A DNA stretch of 64,000 nt. It comes from Mauremys mutica. Its lineage: Eukaryota; Chordata; Testudines; Geoemydidae. The DNA is taken from contig NC_059089.1 in the NCBI RefSeq assembly GCF_020497125.1, positions 27,425,282-27,489,281 of the forward strand, given 5' to 3'. Shown piece after piece: positions 28,991 to 37,489 of the stretch. The notes beneath the pieces are model-generated. The model saw only the letters and a program-made list of their open reading frames with translations. It had not been told where the DNA came from and searched no databases. The position numbers were made by a program, and so were the translations under genes. The first letter of the stretch is position 1, and each line of letters starts with the position of its first letter.

Positions 28991-31199
28991 CTGGAAAGAT
29001 TAAAAAAATATAGTGTTCACAATACTTCTCTAAAGTTTTAGCAAAGCTTGTGTGCTCGACAGAAGAAAATCACAGATGGTGATCTTAGCATACCATCCGC
29101 ACAGCAGAAGGAAGCAATGAAATGCTGACAGGCTTCTCATGTCATTTCAATTTAAGGCAAGTGCTGGCTTACAGGAGCAGCTGAACTCTTTTCAATAAAG
29201 TTCATTTCCCCACTGTAGGAAATGCAAAAATCTATCAAACGGCTAGTTAGGTCTCATTCAGCCCTAGACTATATTTCAGTTAAATTACCACATTAGAACT
29301 CCTTTATGAAACTACCCACTGTATAATCATCACATGTAGAAGATAAGTGTTATATTTAAGATAAAAGGCCAATTAACCCCAGAATTATCACTGTAAAAAT
29401 GAAAAAAAACCAGCTGCTTAAGGCTAAATAAAACAGTACTGTAATTTTAAAGAAAAAAATTCGGTAGCAATGATATTGCAAAACAGATCTTCCCAGTTAG
29501 AAACACGGCTCTTTATTCTAGGGTAGTTGAAACCAAAATTTAGTCATGCTGCATATTAATGTACCAGCCGACTGACAGGCCTTACCCTGCTGAGCCAAAG
29601 AAAATAGTTTTACTGATTCAACTGGCAACATTTTGGTGGCAGGTGGACAAATCTCTGTGGCTGGCCTAGTGGAATGGCACGGAAGCTGGTGACCTTTAAA
29701 TTAATGTGAACAGGGCAGATGTCCTAATGGCAGAACTCACAGGAGTGAGTTACCATACGAACATGAATGGTTTCAAAATTAAAACTCAATGCATCCTGTA
29801 CGTAAGCTTTTTCATCAGTTTTCATTTAATTTATTCATTTCAAAGGTCAGTTACTAATCCATAACGTACCAGCCACATTACTGTAAATTCACCTCTTTCC
29901 CGGAGGAAGCCTTATTTGCAATCTTATTTACGTTATCTAATTCTTCAGATCTTCAAAAATCAACTGATATATGCTAGGAAACCATGGCCAACAAATTTGA
30001 GACCTCAGTATTTTATCATGGCATGTTAATTAAGCACCATTATGATGCACTAATCATGAATATAAATTCTCTATTGAAAAATTGGCTAATAATTAAAAAA
30101 AACTTTAAATCATTTGACAAATGAAGCTTTGGTGGTATTAAAAATGCTGGAAGTCTCAGCTACAGGCTAATCAGTATGTTAATTCATTCATGGCTGGCTA
30201 CTGCTAAGGACTGAATTCAGCATCTTTTAACATTCTAAGAGTGCAACTACACACACACACTATTCATAGAGACATAATATAACTTTGTAAATTATCAACT
30301 TTCATGGCTTTTTATGGTATAAGGTGATGTTACACACTGGAATTTTAAAATATGGCAGAAACTACAGGCCAAGAATCCAAAGAATTCACTGCTGGTAATG
30401 GGCTAGGCTTCTTCACAGCACATACCGAAACGGGTCCTACCTGGAACTGTCAATTCACTAGCCCACCTGGAACGTCTCATTCTAGGTTTGCTTCTCTCCT
30501 GTCCCAATGGTACGTTCTCCCAGGTAGTGGGCTGTGACCATGTAGACAGACTATTCTGGGGTGTTCAAAGCACCTTTGAACAATTCTCAAACACAAAACA
30601 GAAATGACTGCTCAACCCCATTTTGTGGTGGGAGAGGAAGCACAGTCAGTGGGTAGGTGATGGACTGGCAAGCAGGGGACATGGGCTTTATTGTCACTGA
30701 CCTGCTGTGTGACCAGGAGCTTTTCAGGGCAGGGACCGTCTTGTACTCTAGCAGGGCTTGGTTGTGACCTCCAGGTACCAAATATTACTAAAAACAATAA
30801 GTAGTTGCAATGTATCAAAACCTGTATTAATTCTTCCCCTGCTCACTTGGCCCGTCACACAGTCTGAGGGCACAGACTGCTTAGAAGCTAAATCCTCCAC
30901 GGTCCCATGGTCACGGACGGGTCTGAACACAGGGCAAGTGGGGCGTTCTGCTGTGCAGAGAGCAGGGGACTGCAGCAGGAGGCCCTCCTGGGGGAAATTC
31001 AGGAGGTTGAGGATGGAGCAATGGTGTTGCCAGTGGATCAAGTGTATGGAACTCCTTGCAGAGCAGCCTGCATTGGGAACAATGGGCCGGGAGTGGCGGT
31101 GAGCTTTACCCTGTATCCAGCTCAAATTACCTAAACTCCTTCCACCCATTTAAGGGCTTTTCCTCTCAAAACACATGTGAATATGCACAATGGGGCTCA
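28991..31199 (-). other. MAPKAP1: MAPKAP1 intron, part between exon and Harbinger
   Basis: AT-rich intron DNA. Carries a MIR-like piece with an ancient repeat tail at 30640-30800. No other feature is supported. Confidence 0.5.
30640..30800 (-). repeat. MIR-like SINE fragment with ancient repeat tail
   Basis: Contains 'CACTGACCTGCTGTGTGACC', the MIR core, followed by 'GGGCAGGGACCGTC' and 'ACCTCCAGGTACCAAATATT', a tail commonly found beside it in amniotes. Orientation is inferred from the core. Confidence 0.55.
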
Positions 31200-31345
31200 G
31201 GGCTTGGCTACACTTACAAGTTGCAGCGCTGGGAGTTACAGCGCTGGTCATGCAGCTGTGGAAGGGCCAGCGCTGGAGTGTGGCCACACTGACAGCTACC
31301 AGCGCTGCAGTGTGGCCACACTTGCAGCACTTTCCAGCGCTGTAT
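31200..31345 (+). repeat. Harbinger left terminal and subterminal repeats
   Basis: The terminal repeat (31200-31232) is followed by AGCGCT palindromes at 31225, 31240, 31269, 31301 and 31336, usually as CAGCGCTG or CAGCGCTGG. These are candidate binding sites for the element's Myb-like protein or transposase. Confidence 0.85.
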
Positions 31346-31580
31346 TGAGAGGTGCATTGTGGGCAGCTATCCCACAGAGCACCTCGTCCCGTTTTGGCGC
31401 CGTTTTGGCGCTGAGTATTGTGGGAAGGGGAAGGAAGTGTGCGGGTCATTCCGCTTCCTGTTTGCCAGCGCCCCGTGGTGCATCGCTTCACATCCCAGCA
31501 TTCACTCTTTCCAGCAGCGTTTGGCGCCATTGTGAGTGTCTTTCTGTTACTCTCTGTGTGAATCGCGATTTCTGTGGCAA

Positions 31581-32828
31581 ATGGAGCCCGATCTGCTGAG
31601 GACTCTGCTGATGAGTGTCACCAGCACAACACGTTTGGCAGTCCAGCTATTCCTTCAGCTCCAAAGTGACAGTGAGGATTCCGACGATGATATCAATATG
31701 GATTTGCCTGCCGCGTGTGACACTAAAGTGCTTGCGGCATTTACGGAAATGCTCAGCACCGTTGAACGCCGCTTTTGGGCTCGGGAAACAAGCACTGAGT
31801 GGTGGGATCACATCGTCATGGAAGTCTGGGATGACGAGCAGTGGCTGCAGAACTTTCGTATGAGAAAAGCCACTTTCATGGGACTGTGTGCTGAGCTCGC
31901 CCCCACTCTGCGGCGCAAGGACACAAGATTGAGAGCTGCCCTGACGGTGGAAAAGCGAGTGGCTATTGCAATCTGGAAGCTGGCAACTCCAGACAGCTAC
32001 CGGTCGGTCGGGAACCAGTTTGGTGTGGGAAAGTCGACCGTGGGAATCGTTTTGATGCAAGTTTGCAAGGCAATTAATCGCATCCTGCTAAGAAAGACCG
32101 TGACTCTGGGGAGCGTGCAGGACATTGTGGATGGCTTTGCACACATGGGTTTCCCTAACTGTGGAGGGGCGATAGATGGGACGCATATTCCTATTCTGGC
32201 CCCCCCCCACCTGGCATCAGAGTACGTTAATCGGAAGGGGTATTTCTCTATGGTTCTCCAGGCGCTTGTGGATCACCGCGGGCGTTTCATTGACATTTAC
32301 ACAGGCTGGCCTGGAAAGGTGCATGATGCACGCATCTTTCGGAACAGTGGCCTGTTCAGGAAGATGCAGGCAGGGACTTTTTTCCCAGACAGGAAGATCA
32401 CAGTAGGGGATGTCGAAATGCCCACTGTGATCCTTGGAGACCCCGCGTACCCGTTACTGCCTTGGCTCATGAAACCCTATACAGGGAAGCTTGACAGGAG
32501 CAAGGACCGGTTCAACTACAGGCTGAGCCGGTGCAGAATGACTGTGGAGTGTGCTTTTGGGCGTTTAAAAGCCCGCTGGCGTTGCTTGTATGGGAAGCTA
32601 GACTTGGGGGAAAGCAGCATCCCCGCGGTTATATGCGCTTGCTGTACCCTCCATAATATTTGTGAAGGGAAGGGTGAAACATTCAGTGAGGCATGGACCA
32701 CCGAGGTTCAAGTCCTGGAGGCTGAATATGCACAGCCAGAGAGCAGGGCTAATAGAGAGGCCCAGCACAGGGCTACAAGGATTAGGGATGCCTTGAGGGA
32801 AGAATTTGAGGCTGAAAGCCAACAATAA
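31581..32828 (+). CDS. Harbinger transposase (HARBI1-like DDE nuclease), intact
   Basis: A 415-residue protein that would cut and rejoin the element's ends. The start chosen is ATG 31581; the frame is open upstream to a GTG at 31536 but has no earlier ATG. An acidic N-terminal stretch (about 25-40) is followed by a WDHIVMEVWDDEQWLQNFRM segment and a helix-turn-helix-like YRSVGNQFGVGKSTV (about 138-152). The DDE domain has all three catalytic acids: D199 in GAIDGTHI, D287 in LGDPAYPL and E323 in VECAFGRLKARW. The 36-residue spacing of the last two fits the family. No stop or frameshift is present. AATAAA follows at 32953-32958. Domesticated HARBI1 is excluded by the terminal repeats and target duplication around it. 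Confidence 0.95.
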   Translation: MEPDLLRTLLMSVTSTTRLAVQLFLQLQSDSEDSDDDINMDLPAACDTKVLAAFTEMLSTVERRFWARETSTEWWDHIVMEVWDDEQWLQNFRMRKATFMGLCAELAPTLRRKDTRLRAALTVEKRVAIAIWKLATPDSYRSVGNQFGVGKSTVGIVLMQVCKAINRILLRKTVTLGSVQDIVDGFAHMGFPNCGGAIDGTHIPILAPPHLASEYVNRKGYFSMVLQALVDHRGRFIDIYTGWPGKVHDARIFRNSGLFRKMQAGTFFPDRKITVGDVEMPTVILGDPAYPLLPWLMKPYTGKLDRSKDRFNYRLSRCRMTVECAFGRLKARWRCLYGKLDLGESSIPAVICACCTLHNICEGKGETFSEAWTTEVQVLEAEYAQPESRANREAQHRATRIRDALREEFEAESQQ

Positions 32829-32952
32829 TGTTTGCTGCCTTGCATGGGAGTGAATTGCACTGCTTACACTGTTATTCTATTATCCATAATAATAATATGA
32901 TTTGTAGTGCCTCTTTCTTTACTGGGCTAAGGTATCTTTCACTATCTGCTAT

Positions 32953-32989
32953 AATAAAGACTGTTTTCAAAGCCAAGAATTGTTTTATT
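32953..32989. other. two convergent poly(A) signals
   Basis: A plus-strand AATAAA at 32953-32958 ends the transposase gene. A minus-strand AATAAA (plus TTTATT, 32984-32989) ends the Myb-like gene. They are 25 bp apart, so the two transcripts should end tail-to-tail with a small overlap. Confidence 0.75.
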
Positions 32990-33079
32990 GAAAAGAAAAA
33001 AACTTCCTTGACAGACAGACAGACACACAACATTTCATGAACACAAGAGGGCAGGGGTGTGGGTTGGTGAACTGTACAG

Positions 33080-33603
33080 TCACAAGTTTGCATATGCCCT
33101 GTCTGGATTGCTGTTTAATGAATCCTGCACTTCAGGGTTCATATACTGCATGGTGATGGGGGTTGAATGCAGAGGGTAAGGGTGGTGGTAGGTATCAGGG
33201 CTGGTTGGGGAACATACAGGTGTTGGAGGCAGCTGGTGGTGGTAAGAACCTGGATGCTGGGGAAAGGTGGTTTGAGCTGACATTGGGGCACAAGGCACAA
33301 AGGACGGGGCGGGTGGGGGAGTAGCACGGTAGTGCTCTGCTTGCATGGCAACGAGTGACTCTATAGACTCCGCTTGGCGCTCCAGGATGCTTAGCAGCCG
33401 CTCCGTGGTTTTCCTCTTGGCCACTGCATTTCTCTTGCGTGTCCTGCTTTCTTTCTCTCGCCAATCCTTCAAGTCCTTACTCTCTCGAGCAGACTGATTA
33501 AGAACAGTTTTCAGCATGTCTTCTTTGCTCTTTCGGGGATTTTTTCTCAAATTTTGAAGCCTCTGTGATGTTGAACATCTGGGCAGTCCAGTAGTCAAGG
33601 TCA
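33080..33603 (-). CDS. Harbinger Myb-like gene, exon 2
   Basis: Second exon of the element's DNA-binding partner gene. The acceptor is TTTCTGTTTCTACAG, ending at 33604. The exon joins the upstream donor through a split GTG codon, then reads TLTTGLPRC..., a strongly basic region (KNPRKSKED, KDWREKESRTRKRNAVAKRK) that may serve in nuclear import or transposase contact. Next come a helical LLSILERQAESIESLVAMQ segment, a Pro/His/Tyr-rich tail and a stop at 33080-33082. The exon is intact, giving 174 residues plus the split codon. Its function is inferred from the two-gene Harbinger model. Confidence 0.8.
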
Positions 33604-33742
33604 CTGTAGAAACAGAAATGACAACATTTAACACGGGCAGCATTGTATCCACTATCTCCAGACATGAATTGTTACACTGAGGGAGTGAGTTCTTATTTAA
33701 GCATTCTTTTACCCACACGCATAACACTACAGAAGCCACGAC

Positions 33743-34213
33743 ATGGTGAGTGAGCAGTGCTTATATGGGGAGAAGTGGGGCTTGGGTGTAAGAGGGGAGC
33801 TGGTTGCTTCGGGTAATCTGGAGTGCTAGAGGGGTTGAGTGAAATGCAGATGCAGGGGTGATCTTATCTCCCTATCTCTTCACTAAAGAGTCTCCCAACA
33901 TTTTTCACAGGACTTAATCCTGGAAGATGTTTCCCTACTGCGAGTCACTAGGGAACAGCGGGGGGCTCTTTTAGAGCAATGTGGATTCCGCCCGGGACCC
34001 TATGCGGCTTGCCTGTGTTCAGAAATGGTCCCCCCACCACTGGCAGAAGAGTGGCGCGGACGCGTCACCGTCACTGGGACAAGGGACACAGTGGCTCTGC
34101 CTATAAACCTGCGCAGGCATATTGCCCACGCTCTGGATGAAGCTTTTGCTGAGATAACTGAGGCAGATTACCGCGACGTGATAGACCACATCAACGGGCT
34201 ATTCCACATCTAG
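33743..34213 (+). CDS. candidate third Harbinger gene, 101 residues, two exons (33743-33745, 33911-34213)
   Basis: I do not recognise this protein. The proposed first coding exon is just the ATG at 33743-33745, in good start context (GACATGG) with an in-frame stop upstream at 33722. It is followed at once by the strong donor GTGAGTGAG. After a 165-bp intron, the acceptor TTTTTCACAG ends at 33910, and exon 2 opens in the same phase with GACTTAATC. It runs 100 codons (DLILEDVSLLRVTREQ..., ...DYRDVIDHINGLFHI) to a stop at 34211-34213. AATAAA follows at 34272-34277. The whole unit lies inside the intron of the opposite-strand Myb-like gene. The product is small, with a Pro/Gly-containing middle and a predicted helical C terminus; no known motif. 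The splice model is inferred; the open exon is seen directly. Confidence 0.6.
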
Positions 34214-34271
34214 AGGCTGGCATGCATGCATCCATAACCCCCCCTCCTCTCCAGAAACATTTCACCCAGAA

Positions 34272-34277
34272 AATAAA
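34272..34277 (+). other. AATAAA poly(A) signal for the nested third ORF
   Basis: Plus-strand AATAAA 59 bp after the stop of the 101-residue ORF. Cleavage 10-30 bp later would fall over the splice donor of the minus-strand Myb gene (34288/34287). Confidence 0.5.
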
Positions 34278-34287
34278 AGCCGCTTAC

Positions 34288-34842
34288 CGGTAACACGCTC
34301 CTCTGCTTGTCCTTCTGCAACTGCTGGCTGCTGCGATTGGGTGCTTTCCTCCTGGCTTGAGAAGAGCTCCTGGCTGCATGCCTCCAGGGAATCTGCGGTT
34401 TCTTCCCCCATGCCAGGAGCTTCACTCGCGGTTTCCTCCCCCCCCACGCCTCCGCCTCCGCCGCCTCCTCCGCCTCCTCCTCCTGTCCCCCAGCCTGCTC
34501 AGAAGTGTCCATCGTTATCCTGGGATTGGCAGTGGGGTCACCCCCAAGTATCTCATCCATCTCCCTGTAAAAACGGCAGGTCGTGGGAGCAGCTCCGGAT
34601 CGTCGATTCCCCTCTCGGGCTTTGTAATAGGCACTCCGCAGCTCTTTAATTTTCACCCTGCATTGTACTGCGTCCCGATCATGGCCCCGATCCAGCATGG
34701 CCCTTGATATCTGCTCAAAGATATCGTAATTCCTACGGCCGGAGCGCAGCTGTGCCTGAACAGATGCCTCACCCCAAACACTGATGAGGTCCTGCAATTC
34801 ACCAGTGCTCCATGCTGGGGCTCGTTTGCCGCGTGGAGGCAT
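34288..34842 (-). CDS. Harbinger Myb/SANT-like DNA-binding gene, exon 1, one frameshift
   Basis: Encodes the element's trihelix/Myb-SANT-like protein, which in other Harbingers escorts the transposase to the nucleus and to the DNA ends. ATG 34842 has A at -3. Residues about 10-95 form the domain: W11, then DLISVWGE, YDIFEQISRAMLDRG, CRVKIKELRSAYYKAR and CRFYREMDEILG. An acidic Glu/Ala-rich stretch follows. At a run of eight G (plus-strand C8, 34438-34445) the open frame shifts: the continuation that reaches the donor (GAEERVTG type, ACCG|GTAAGC at 34288/34287) is in the next frame. With nine G the two exons would form one 359-residue reading frame. As read, the first frame instead ends at 34210 after 210 residues. 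A real mutation or a homopolymer sequencing error are equally possible. Confidence 0.8.
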
Positions 34843-35029
34843 GGTCACCTGTAACTGATTAAAACTGATTGCACTCCACACCTGGCTGCAGCAAACAGGA
34901 AGGAGATTTTTAAATTTCCCGGGGCATTTACAGGGCGGGTCACCTGAGCCAAGAGCAGTAGAGTGCAAACTGATGTGCAGAGTGGCTGAACAGGAATTCT
35001 GGGATACCTCCTTATTCCCTGGAGGACAG

Positions 35030-35235
35030 GTAAAGCGCTGGTGAGTGTCCACACCTGCTGGGCAGCGCTGGATCACCAGCGCTGCACTCCTTATACCCCT
35101 GCCGGGATGGGTTTTCAGCCAGCGCTGCAACCAGGGAGTTGCAGCGCTGGTTGTGCCCTGCAAGTGTGGACGGGGTGTTGTTGCAGCGCTGGAAAGCCTC
35201 CACCAGCGCTGCAACTTGTAAGTGTAGCCAAGCCC
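35030..35235 (-). repeat. Harbinger right subterminal and terminal repeats
   Basis: Seven AGCGCT palindromes at 35034, 35064, 35078, 35121, 35143, 35185 and 35205 lead into the perfect terminal repeat 35203-35235. Together with the five on the left they make an unusually dense set of identical sites confined to the element's tips. Confidence 0.85.
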
Positions 35236-37489
35236 TCAGATGCAAGCTGCAAACACAACATCTCTTCTCTCTCGCACATGCACCCATCTCTTCAGTGAGA
35301 AGGAACAGCATTAAATTGCTACTTCAACTCTGTATTGCAGAGGCGTAAACTACATATTATATAAAGAATTAAAAGAATCACTAGCAACGTGCTTTTCTCA
35401 ATCCCTGCAGTCCTACAGTATATTAACAAGAGTAGATGATAAGCAATAATGCTGTACGGCAGAATATTAATAAAAAGAATAGTGAGACAATAAGCTTGCT
35501 TGAAATATGGAAAACAGGCCATGTCACATTGAAACCTTCCCTAGCCCCCTCACCTCTTGTTTAAACACATGATTTATTCCTTTTTTTTCAGCTGCAGTAT
35601 TTATACAGCTGACAGAAGCAGAACACAGAACTTTATTTCAAGCACTTATTTTTGGATTTTAAAGAGTCAGCCTTTTCAATGACAATTACAGAGCAATACA
35701 TGTCAATAACACTTTTATTGTGCTGTGTAACAGGAGGCAGAGTTCAATCCATCACCCCAGAGAGGTCTGGCTGCCCCCAAATCCTCCTGGAGGAGCACAA
35801 GGAGGAGAGATCTAGTTTTTATGCCCAACATCACCTTGTTCTACACTAGAAGCACTCAGTGATATTTTAAAGAGAGGCATGTTAGCTAAGATGGAAACAA
35901 GTAATTGGTTACCCTGAGAACAAAGAATTTATGTTGTGGTGTGAAGGTCTCTTGAAAAACACCATAAAAAGAACTGAGCTTCTCCATGAAACAGAGAAAA
36001 TTAATAAGAAAGCCCAGCACAAAAGGTGATGGGCTACACAGAACACAAACCAGAACTATATGGTGGAGCTACTAACCTAACCATACGACAGCTTGTTCCA
36101 CGAGGCCTGCTCCACTACAGCAGCCGGCTGGAGCATTTGCAGGTGCAGCACATTGCGTTCATGCTCCATCAGTTAGGGCTGCAGCCTGATTTCCTGCTTC
36201 AGAAAGCAAGTGCCAACTGAGACATCGCTGATTTCAGAAAGAGTGAAACAAAATGGTCTCATGCCCCTAAAAGGAACCCCAGCAATTTGGGGCTATATGT
36301 GGTTAATAAAATGGCAAGTCTAGTTATCTTCAAAGTTTAGTATAAACACCTAATGGCTAGTTTGTGGAAAGTATTTGTATAATCAGCAATACAGGTGATG
36401 CCAGGGTTTATATCCTCTGACAGGTGATTTACAAAACATTCCTTTAGAAGGTTGCATTACAGTATTATGCTCATGTGCTTCCACATCCACATTATACTGT
36501 TCACGATGTGAAATATTAGTTCATTGAAACAATCAACTGGCACTTTGTTTTGTTACTATTCTGGCCAGATGGAATTTATGAATTGTGAGGGATGGATTGA
36601 TTTCCATTTCCAAGAGTACTTAAATATGTGATATACAGTTCTAAACCCTCTTAATGTCACCCTTGGTCATTCAGAGATCAATACAAATTTCAATATTTTT
36701 ATATTTCTATATAAAGAACATCTGAAGACAAATGAGCTCTACTGTACCTTGTAGAATTCAGATAGCACGGCCTCCTACGAACAGCTTGGTTATAGTCAAT
36801 TCTTTTAAATAAGCCTTGCCTGCCCTTTAATGTATATGGTTGAAATGAATATGTTCTGCTCCAGCCCAACATCTCTGGCATTTCCCTTCCCTTCCCTTCT
36901 TCTGAGATCCCAGAGAAACGAATGAAACGTTAAACACTAAAGAGCCCTAAGCATTCATGTCTGGACAGCCAATCCCTCAAAACTGGGAGATGTTCAGAGC
37001 TTGTTTGACCCAACAGGAGTCAGCACTATTACCACCACATTTTCATTGTATCCCCTCAGGTTTGATGAGGAAAATATACTAGACTCATACAAATGGCTAT
37101 TTACATATGTTCTCTTTAAAGAACATTCTATTATTATCCTGTTCACATTCTAGAGCTGAGACATGCTGTCAAATTTCATTTCCTGGAATGACTGTGCAGT
37201 GCCATGAAATTTTGAAGAATTTCAGTTTACACAATGGTTGGGAAATTTTTCCTAGAATTTCTGGAAAATACAAGTTGTGCTTGGAAAAATGTATAAAAGC
37301 TTTGTAAAATACATCTTGCTTCCATTCACATAAGAGAAAGAAGCTTTTCATTTTGACAGAAAAAGACATTAAGCCCTTTTATGAGGAACAATTTTTCACC
37401 AGTTTTACTTTGAGTAGAAATGTTTTTCCCCCAGAGTTCAGATGTTACCAACAACTGCCAATTTTACTCTTTTTAAAATTATGCACTAT

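Follow-up and report, generated by a model that had tools for sequence, protein, structure and literature searches.

The exon at positions 33911-34213 of the window (the whole 64,000-nt stretch of turtle DNA that was analysed) is probably the body of a genuine, overlooked third gene of a PIF/Harbinger family of the NuwaII type. The gene would lie in antisense orientation within the Myb-like intron and would encode a small, acidic product of some 101 residues without a known domain, with a promoter, splicing and a role in trans as proposed below. An earlier sequence-only reading had held that this lineage gained a third small protein or that one had been overlooked in it, and that view is supported both by the conservation of the frame in turtle homologues and by its linkage to transposase and Myb-like sequence.

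The element and its transposase and Myb-like genes

The window contains one complete PIF/Harbinger element of 4,036 bp (31200-35235; Table 1), and no second copy was found within its 64,000 nt. The NuwaII group of the PHIS superfamily is described as having C/TNA/G targets, mostly GG termini and terminal inverted repeats (TIRs) of 13-46 bp, with 12 host species, one of them a turtle, and with two ORFs in most of its autonomous elements (Zhang and Zhang 2015, PMC4482050). As far as the available text of that survey goes, the present element resembles the group in its turtle host, in its C/TCA/G target with a 3-bp TNA duplication (read from a single copy without an empty site), in its 33-nt TIR arms, which begin with GG (they start GGGCTTGG), in its DDE transposase and in a second protein with a Myb/SANT domain, the frame of which is broken further on in this copy. 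Instead of exactly two proteins there is a third conserved frame, which marks the element as a NuwaII variant and does not disqualify it, since only most autonomous members have two ORFs. By target, TIRs and the DDE and Myb domains the element may be called NuwaII-like.

The sub-terminal regions (window 31219-31347 and 35032-35216) are rich in direct and inverted copies of CAGCGCTG(G/C), to which the Myb-like protein may bind. An AATAAA lies downstream of the transposase at 32953, and another, for the Myb-like gene, is found on the minus strand at 32989-32984. The Myb-like intron is plausible because the reading frame stays open where the two Myb exons are joined (EERVT/VTLTTG, frame 0 of the tail). 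Read from its ATG, the Myb-like frame meets a TGA directly past the intron; the Chelonia protein P0022 aligns to Myb exon 1 in one frame as far as 34501 and in another from 34402, an interval that includes a run of eight G (34438-34445). The Myb-like gene of this copy thus appears to be frameshifted relative to P0022, which may reflect either a homopolymer sequence error or a true defect. The transposase and third frames are both open in this copy. Elsewhere in the window, the minus strand between 6547 and 7897 carries long overlapping open frames of simple THPSIHP/THTHTP-type repeats, by appearance a low-complexity array rather than genes.

Table 1. Features of the PIF/Harbinger element and of its predicted third gene (positions in the window)
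Feature	Position	Strand	Basis
Left target-site duplication TCA	31197..31199		Read in sequence; C at 31196 precedes
Left TIR, starts GGGCTTGGC	31200..31232	+	Inverted repeat 31196-31232 / 35203-35239, 97% complementary
Transposase gene, single open frame, 415 aa	31581..32828	+	Pfam DDE_Tnp_4 E=1.9e-37, Plant_tran 1.5e-10
Myb-like gene exon 2	33080..33603	-	Open frame 33080-33739 minus; join checked
Myb-like intron (GT..AG), host of the third gene	33604..34287	-	Donor CCG/GTAAGC, in the top 0.5% of GTs
TATA-like site TATTTAAG, 49 nt before the ATG	33694..33701	+	Putative promoter role
Third gene, candidate one-codon first exon (ATG, donor GTGAGT)	33743..33745	+	Predicted from sequence; start of P0004
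Third gene, predicted intron, 165 nt	33746..33910	+	CACTAAAG at 33881-33888, acceptor TTTTTCACAG
Third gene, coding exon, 100 codons + TAG	33911..34213	+	21 turtle homologues and two more distant ones
Third gene, polyadenylation signal AATAAA	34272..34277	+	Starts 59 nt past the last base of the stop
Myb-like gene exon 1	34288..34842	-	Myb_DNA-bind_4 E=2.9e-20; apparent frameshift between 34501 and 34402
Right TIR	35203..35235	-	Inverted repeat search
Right target-site duplication TCA	35236..35238		Read in sequence; G at 35239 next

Structure and signals of the probable third gene

The coordinates given by the sequence-only reading for the ATG, donor, 165-bp intron, acceptor, 100 codons, TAG and AATAAA are exact, and its statement that every signal falls inside the minus-strand intron 34287-33604 was verified, the Myb exons joining in an open frame; all signals of the third gene are thereby antisense to the Myb-like gene. 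The ATG at 33743-33745 directly adjoins GTGAGTGAG, the donor at 33746 being in the top 0.16% of 6,737 GTs. At the other end of the putative intron the acceptor TTTTTCACAG looks good, with CACTAAAG sitting 23-30 nt upstream of the coding exon, which is in phase with the ATG at 33743 and has open codons over 33911-34210, followed by the TAG at 34211-34213. Within 33601-33760, TATTTAAG is the sole match to the TATA-type pattern used.

The Chelonia protein P0004, known from the protein alone, has exactly 101 residues and begins M/ELVLED, i.e. it has the same start as the predicted spliced product. Judged by the sequence signals and by this one model of the same length, the ATG at 33743 with its donor GTGAGT is the best candidate for the first exon; alternatives may be a non-coding exon that starts further upstream and closes with this ATG, or a fusion to the N-terminus of the transposase.

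In the arrangement proposed here, transcription would start from a promoter inside the Myb-like intron, with the TATA-like site at 33694, translation would start at the ATG at 33743, the 165 nt would be spliced out and the transcript would end at the AATAAA at 34272. With the third gene on the transposase strand and antisense to the Myb-like gene, the primary transcripts of the two would overlap and their mature mRNAs would not, and this overlap could couple the expression of the third gene to that of the Myb-like gene.

Homologues of the predicted third protein

A phmmer search with the 101-residue protein gave four proteins, one of them that of the window, and two profile searches raised the total to 24, i.e. 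the window itself and 23 non-self matches. Among the latter, 21 are named as turtle proteins (18 from Chelonia mydas and one each from Caretta caretta, Lepidochelys olivacea and Pangshura tecta), and the remaining two, P0016 and P0024, are more distant, being 42% and 36% identical to the window exon, respectively. Between them, these two share 60% identity over 85 residues; they are encoded on contigs of 1,554 and 2,059 bases and may form a second subfamily of the third protein. The whole exon is spanned by nine turtle rows (P0010 with an internal gap), which are 57-70% identical to the window and have the C-terminus LF.I in common, P0001 and P0010 with a tail beyond it; the other 12 of the 21 show only part of the domain. 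Copies that lack the exon or carry random stops in it, which the sequence-only reading had named as the outcome contrary to a third gene, were not seen among the available sequences, all of which are gene models or predicted proteins and hence subject to an ascertainment bias towards open frames. Collections of viral, bacterial and archaeal contigs yielded no relatives by protein or by TIR, which says little for a turtle element.

Inspection of the protein rows puts the start of the shared sequence at the acceptor, or no more than one codon from it, in 12 of the 21 turtle models, with N-termini ahead of it that differ among them, and the other nine enter the domain further in. For nine of these 12 the tblastn alignment extends 1-21 codons upstream, with residues that hardly agree with the window: the 21-codon piece of P0006 runs across a window stop, and in P0013 and P0017 the agreement is limited to the Q that CAG would give, which could be the CAG of the acceptor read through instead of spliced.

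The third-gene exon forms the end of two Chelonia models that bear host-gene names, KIRREL3 (P0020) and SCFD1 (P0023); the host-gene copies behind them may be annotated as exonised or may really be so. The Sec1 and immunoglobulin Pfam hits among 17 homologue rows fit the host parts of the chimeric P0023 and P0020.

The predicted protein itself (101 residues, 11.4 kDa) has a pI of 5.06, a net charge of -6 and no lysine. It has no Pfam match at E up to 10, nor has the first member of the 17-row set at E up to 1, and NCBIfam and PDB profile searches with the window exon gave no match. Searched by sequence, the PDB returned only antibody chains (E 0.43-1.9), none of them credible, and PHROGs only matches of E 0.16-0.28 for three proteins given. 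The AlphaFold models, with a pLDDT of 52.2 (17 rows) and 50.5 (11 rows), consist mainly of low-confidence helices and are uninformative.

Arrangement in other copies

The arrangement in other copies was followed by tblastn of the 23 homologues against the window. P0010 from Chelonia continues past the domain in a tail of 105 residues, its stop seemingly lost, and residues 20-102 of this tail match window 34246-34473 (E=4.6e-9 with the composition correction off; 0.003 for the next best place). The match crosses the AATAAA and then, in antisense, the donor and exon 1 of the Myb-like gene; KIKA(A/T)Y, which reads over the AATAAA and the antisense Myb donor, is common to the window and P0010 (KIKAAYR versus KIKATYW). 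In that Chelonia copy the third frame therefore lies immediately antisense to the Myb donor, as it does in the window, so that the nested arrangement is common to both. P0002, P0007, P0014 and P0019 in turn carry the N-terminus of this element's transposase at 50-72% identity. These matches show the third frame linked, in other copies too, to transposase and Myb-like sequence of this element. P0022, in which a Myb part is followed by the third protein, was rejected as a real fusion, as the two parts of the model fall on opposite strands of this element, Myb on the minus and the tail on the plus; it is more likely a join across parts of two copies or an artefact of the model.

The four models with a transposase N-terminus bear on a different reading, in which the exon serves the transposase gene as an alternative 3'-terminal exon and the product is the N-terminus of the transposase fused to the domain, perhaps as an inhibitor of transposition. 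Truncated transposases can act in that way, the third exon lies on the same strand as the transposase, and four of the 21 turtle models show just this order. Their joins, however, do not agree: the transposase part ends after DID/DIN in P0002, P0014 and P0019 and after LTT in P0007, and P0014 and P0019 enter inside the domain rather than at the acceptor, P0019 with an extra unmatched stretch in between. Moreover, the window is without a GT at the position that matches the join of P0002 (GATATCAATATGGAT), the other 17 turtle models are without a transposase match at E<=0.01, and the window has an in-phase ATG and donor of its own 165 nt upstream of the exon. With this evidence on both sides, such a fusion is improbable.

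Chance and selection

It should be noted that the signals of the third gene, taken alone, are only suggestive and could arise by chance. ATGGTRAGT occurs once in the window versus 1.14 times expected from shuffles, and acceptor-like sites with 100 or more open codons behind them, whichever of the three frames is read, are common in it (59 of 746 on the plus strand and 111 of 807 on the minus strand). The third exon is judged to be more than chance because of its homology, i.e. the 23 non-self protein matches.

With the other copies known as proteins, dN/dS was substituted by simulations that applied neutral mutation to the window exon until the protein identity of the real comparison was reached. 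Compared with the turtle majority row (70% identity), 13, 23 and 19 of 1000 runs under three mutation models were as conservative as the observed changes, and 3, 10 and 3 of 1000 when the lack of a stop was also required; for the comparison with P0016 the corresponding counts were 15, 9 and 26, and 0, 1 and 1. The survival of the frame was simulated at assumed rates of 0.05 or 0.10 indels per substitution: at the divergence between the window and the majority row, 3.2% or 0.5% of 2000 neutral runs kept the frame without a stop or frameshift, and at that of P0016 (42-43% protein identity) none of 2000 did so at either indel rate.

Other measures lie closer to neutrality. The mean BLOSUM62 score of changes within copies is -0.67, which is about what the neutral simulations give and is expected from decay after insertion. 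The share of positive-scoring substitutions between the window and the majority row is ordinary (290-300 of 1000 runs reach it), and the majority row scores -0.61 against P0016 and -0.87 against P0024, values that are near the neutral mean simulated for other comparisons at similar divergence (about -0.8) and do not look conservative. Tests on single copies are weak, the observed value being reached in 228 (P0001), 71 (P0004) and 424 (P0007) of 1000 runs. On the whole, neutral runs seldom combine an open frame with substitutions as conservative as those observed.

These results also bear on the reading that the open frame is fortuitous, its apparent conservation coming from the shared ancestry of the copies and from predictors that report open frames. 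That reading is consistent with the counts of chance signals given above, with the fact that every homologue is a prediction and with the several single-copy tests that do not differ from neutral. It is set against a frame kept in none of the neutral runs at the identity of P0016, against window-majority substitutions that are conservative whereas those within copies are near-neutral, and against the C-terminus shared by the nine whole-exon turtle rows, and is very unlikely. That the exon is instead a captured or exonised host sequence, i.e. a host exon taken up by the element or an element exon serving host genes, is hardly credible: the two Chelonia models named for host genes do end in the domain, yet no unchimeric named host protein is found among the 23 non-self hits, the domain is without a Pfam, NCBIfam or credible PDB hit, and the several unrelated N-termini that precede it look like copies inserted in different genes.

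Possible function of the third protein

For a third gene of the element itself, the chances are about even that the product is an accessory or regulatory factor of the element, with an effect of either sign. Most probably it would act in trans in the life cycle of the element, as a protein-binding partner that fine-tunes either the transposase/Myb complex or the expression of that complex. In the zebrafish element the Myb-like protein is reported to bind the TIRs and to be required for nuclear import of the transposase (PMC2836001), and the third protein is accordingly proposed to be a third partner in this complex or to regulate how much of it is supplied.

Comparison with known systems

In the text available, PIF/Harbinger elements of animals and plants figure as two-protein systems of transposase and Myb-like protein, and the zebrafish and rice versions have been tested as such (PMC2836001). 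Separate transposase and Myb-like genes are likewise shared with the canonical vertebrate Harbinger elements, as in a teleost survey (PMC9179366) and in Harbinger-Snek (PMC8437027); these differ from the turtle element in that, in the text available for both, they have two ORFs only, and in their target, given as TWA (PMC4482050). The accessible description of NuwaII differs in containing neither a third protein nor a nested antisense gene (PMC4482050). No three-gene vertebrate Harbinger was found in the literature by titles and abstract openings among the matches listed; a third ORF could still be on record in Repbase.

Outside vertebrates, the TET+ Harbinger elements (PHISTA) of rust fungi are described as carrying TET/JBP, and HarbingerS as carrying a SET methyltransferase (PMC12730594). 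They resemble the turtle element in having proteins besides the transposase, so that extra genes are precedented (PMC12730594), and they differ in that their extra proteins are chromatin enzymes (TET/JBP, SET) of fungi and oomycetes, the further third proteins of TET+ being said, in the part of the source available, to be without a Myb/SANT domain (PMC12730594). The turtle protein, in contrast, is small and without a recognised domain, with no Pfam match to a TET/JBP or SET enzyme, and its gene is nested antisense in an intron. A likeness also exists to the Vandal (MuDR) elements, in which an additional transposon protein is described as regulating the epigenetic silencing of its own element (PMC12730594); these belong to another superfamily and are likened here by role, as a model for what the third protein might do.

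What would be new is a third conserved frame in an otherwise two-gene type of element, extra genes being already known from other Harbinger branches; as a gene it has good support, and its function is proposed from the roles of its neighbours. A bolder and rather unlikely extension would make one lineage of vertebrate NuwaII a three-protein transposon, with the third protein as a new family and with transcription of the third gene and of the Myb-like gene interfering with each other as a built-in switch between a DNA-binding partner and a regulator of transposition, be it a repressor or an anti-silencing factor. If the third gene is real, it would explain a set of turtle 'hypothetical proteins' and chimeric gene models as one transposon protein and would also be a compact instance of antisense gene nesting within a transposon, besides offering a testable candidate regulator. 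A conserved third turtle protein, if true, would be a part of the vertebrate Harbinger machinery, or of its control, that has been missed so far.
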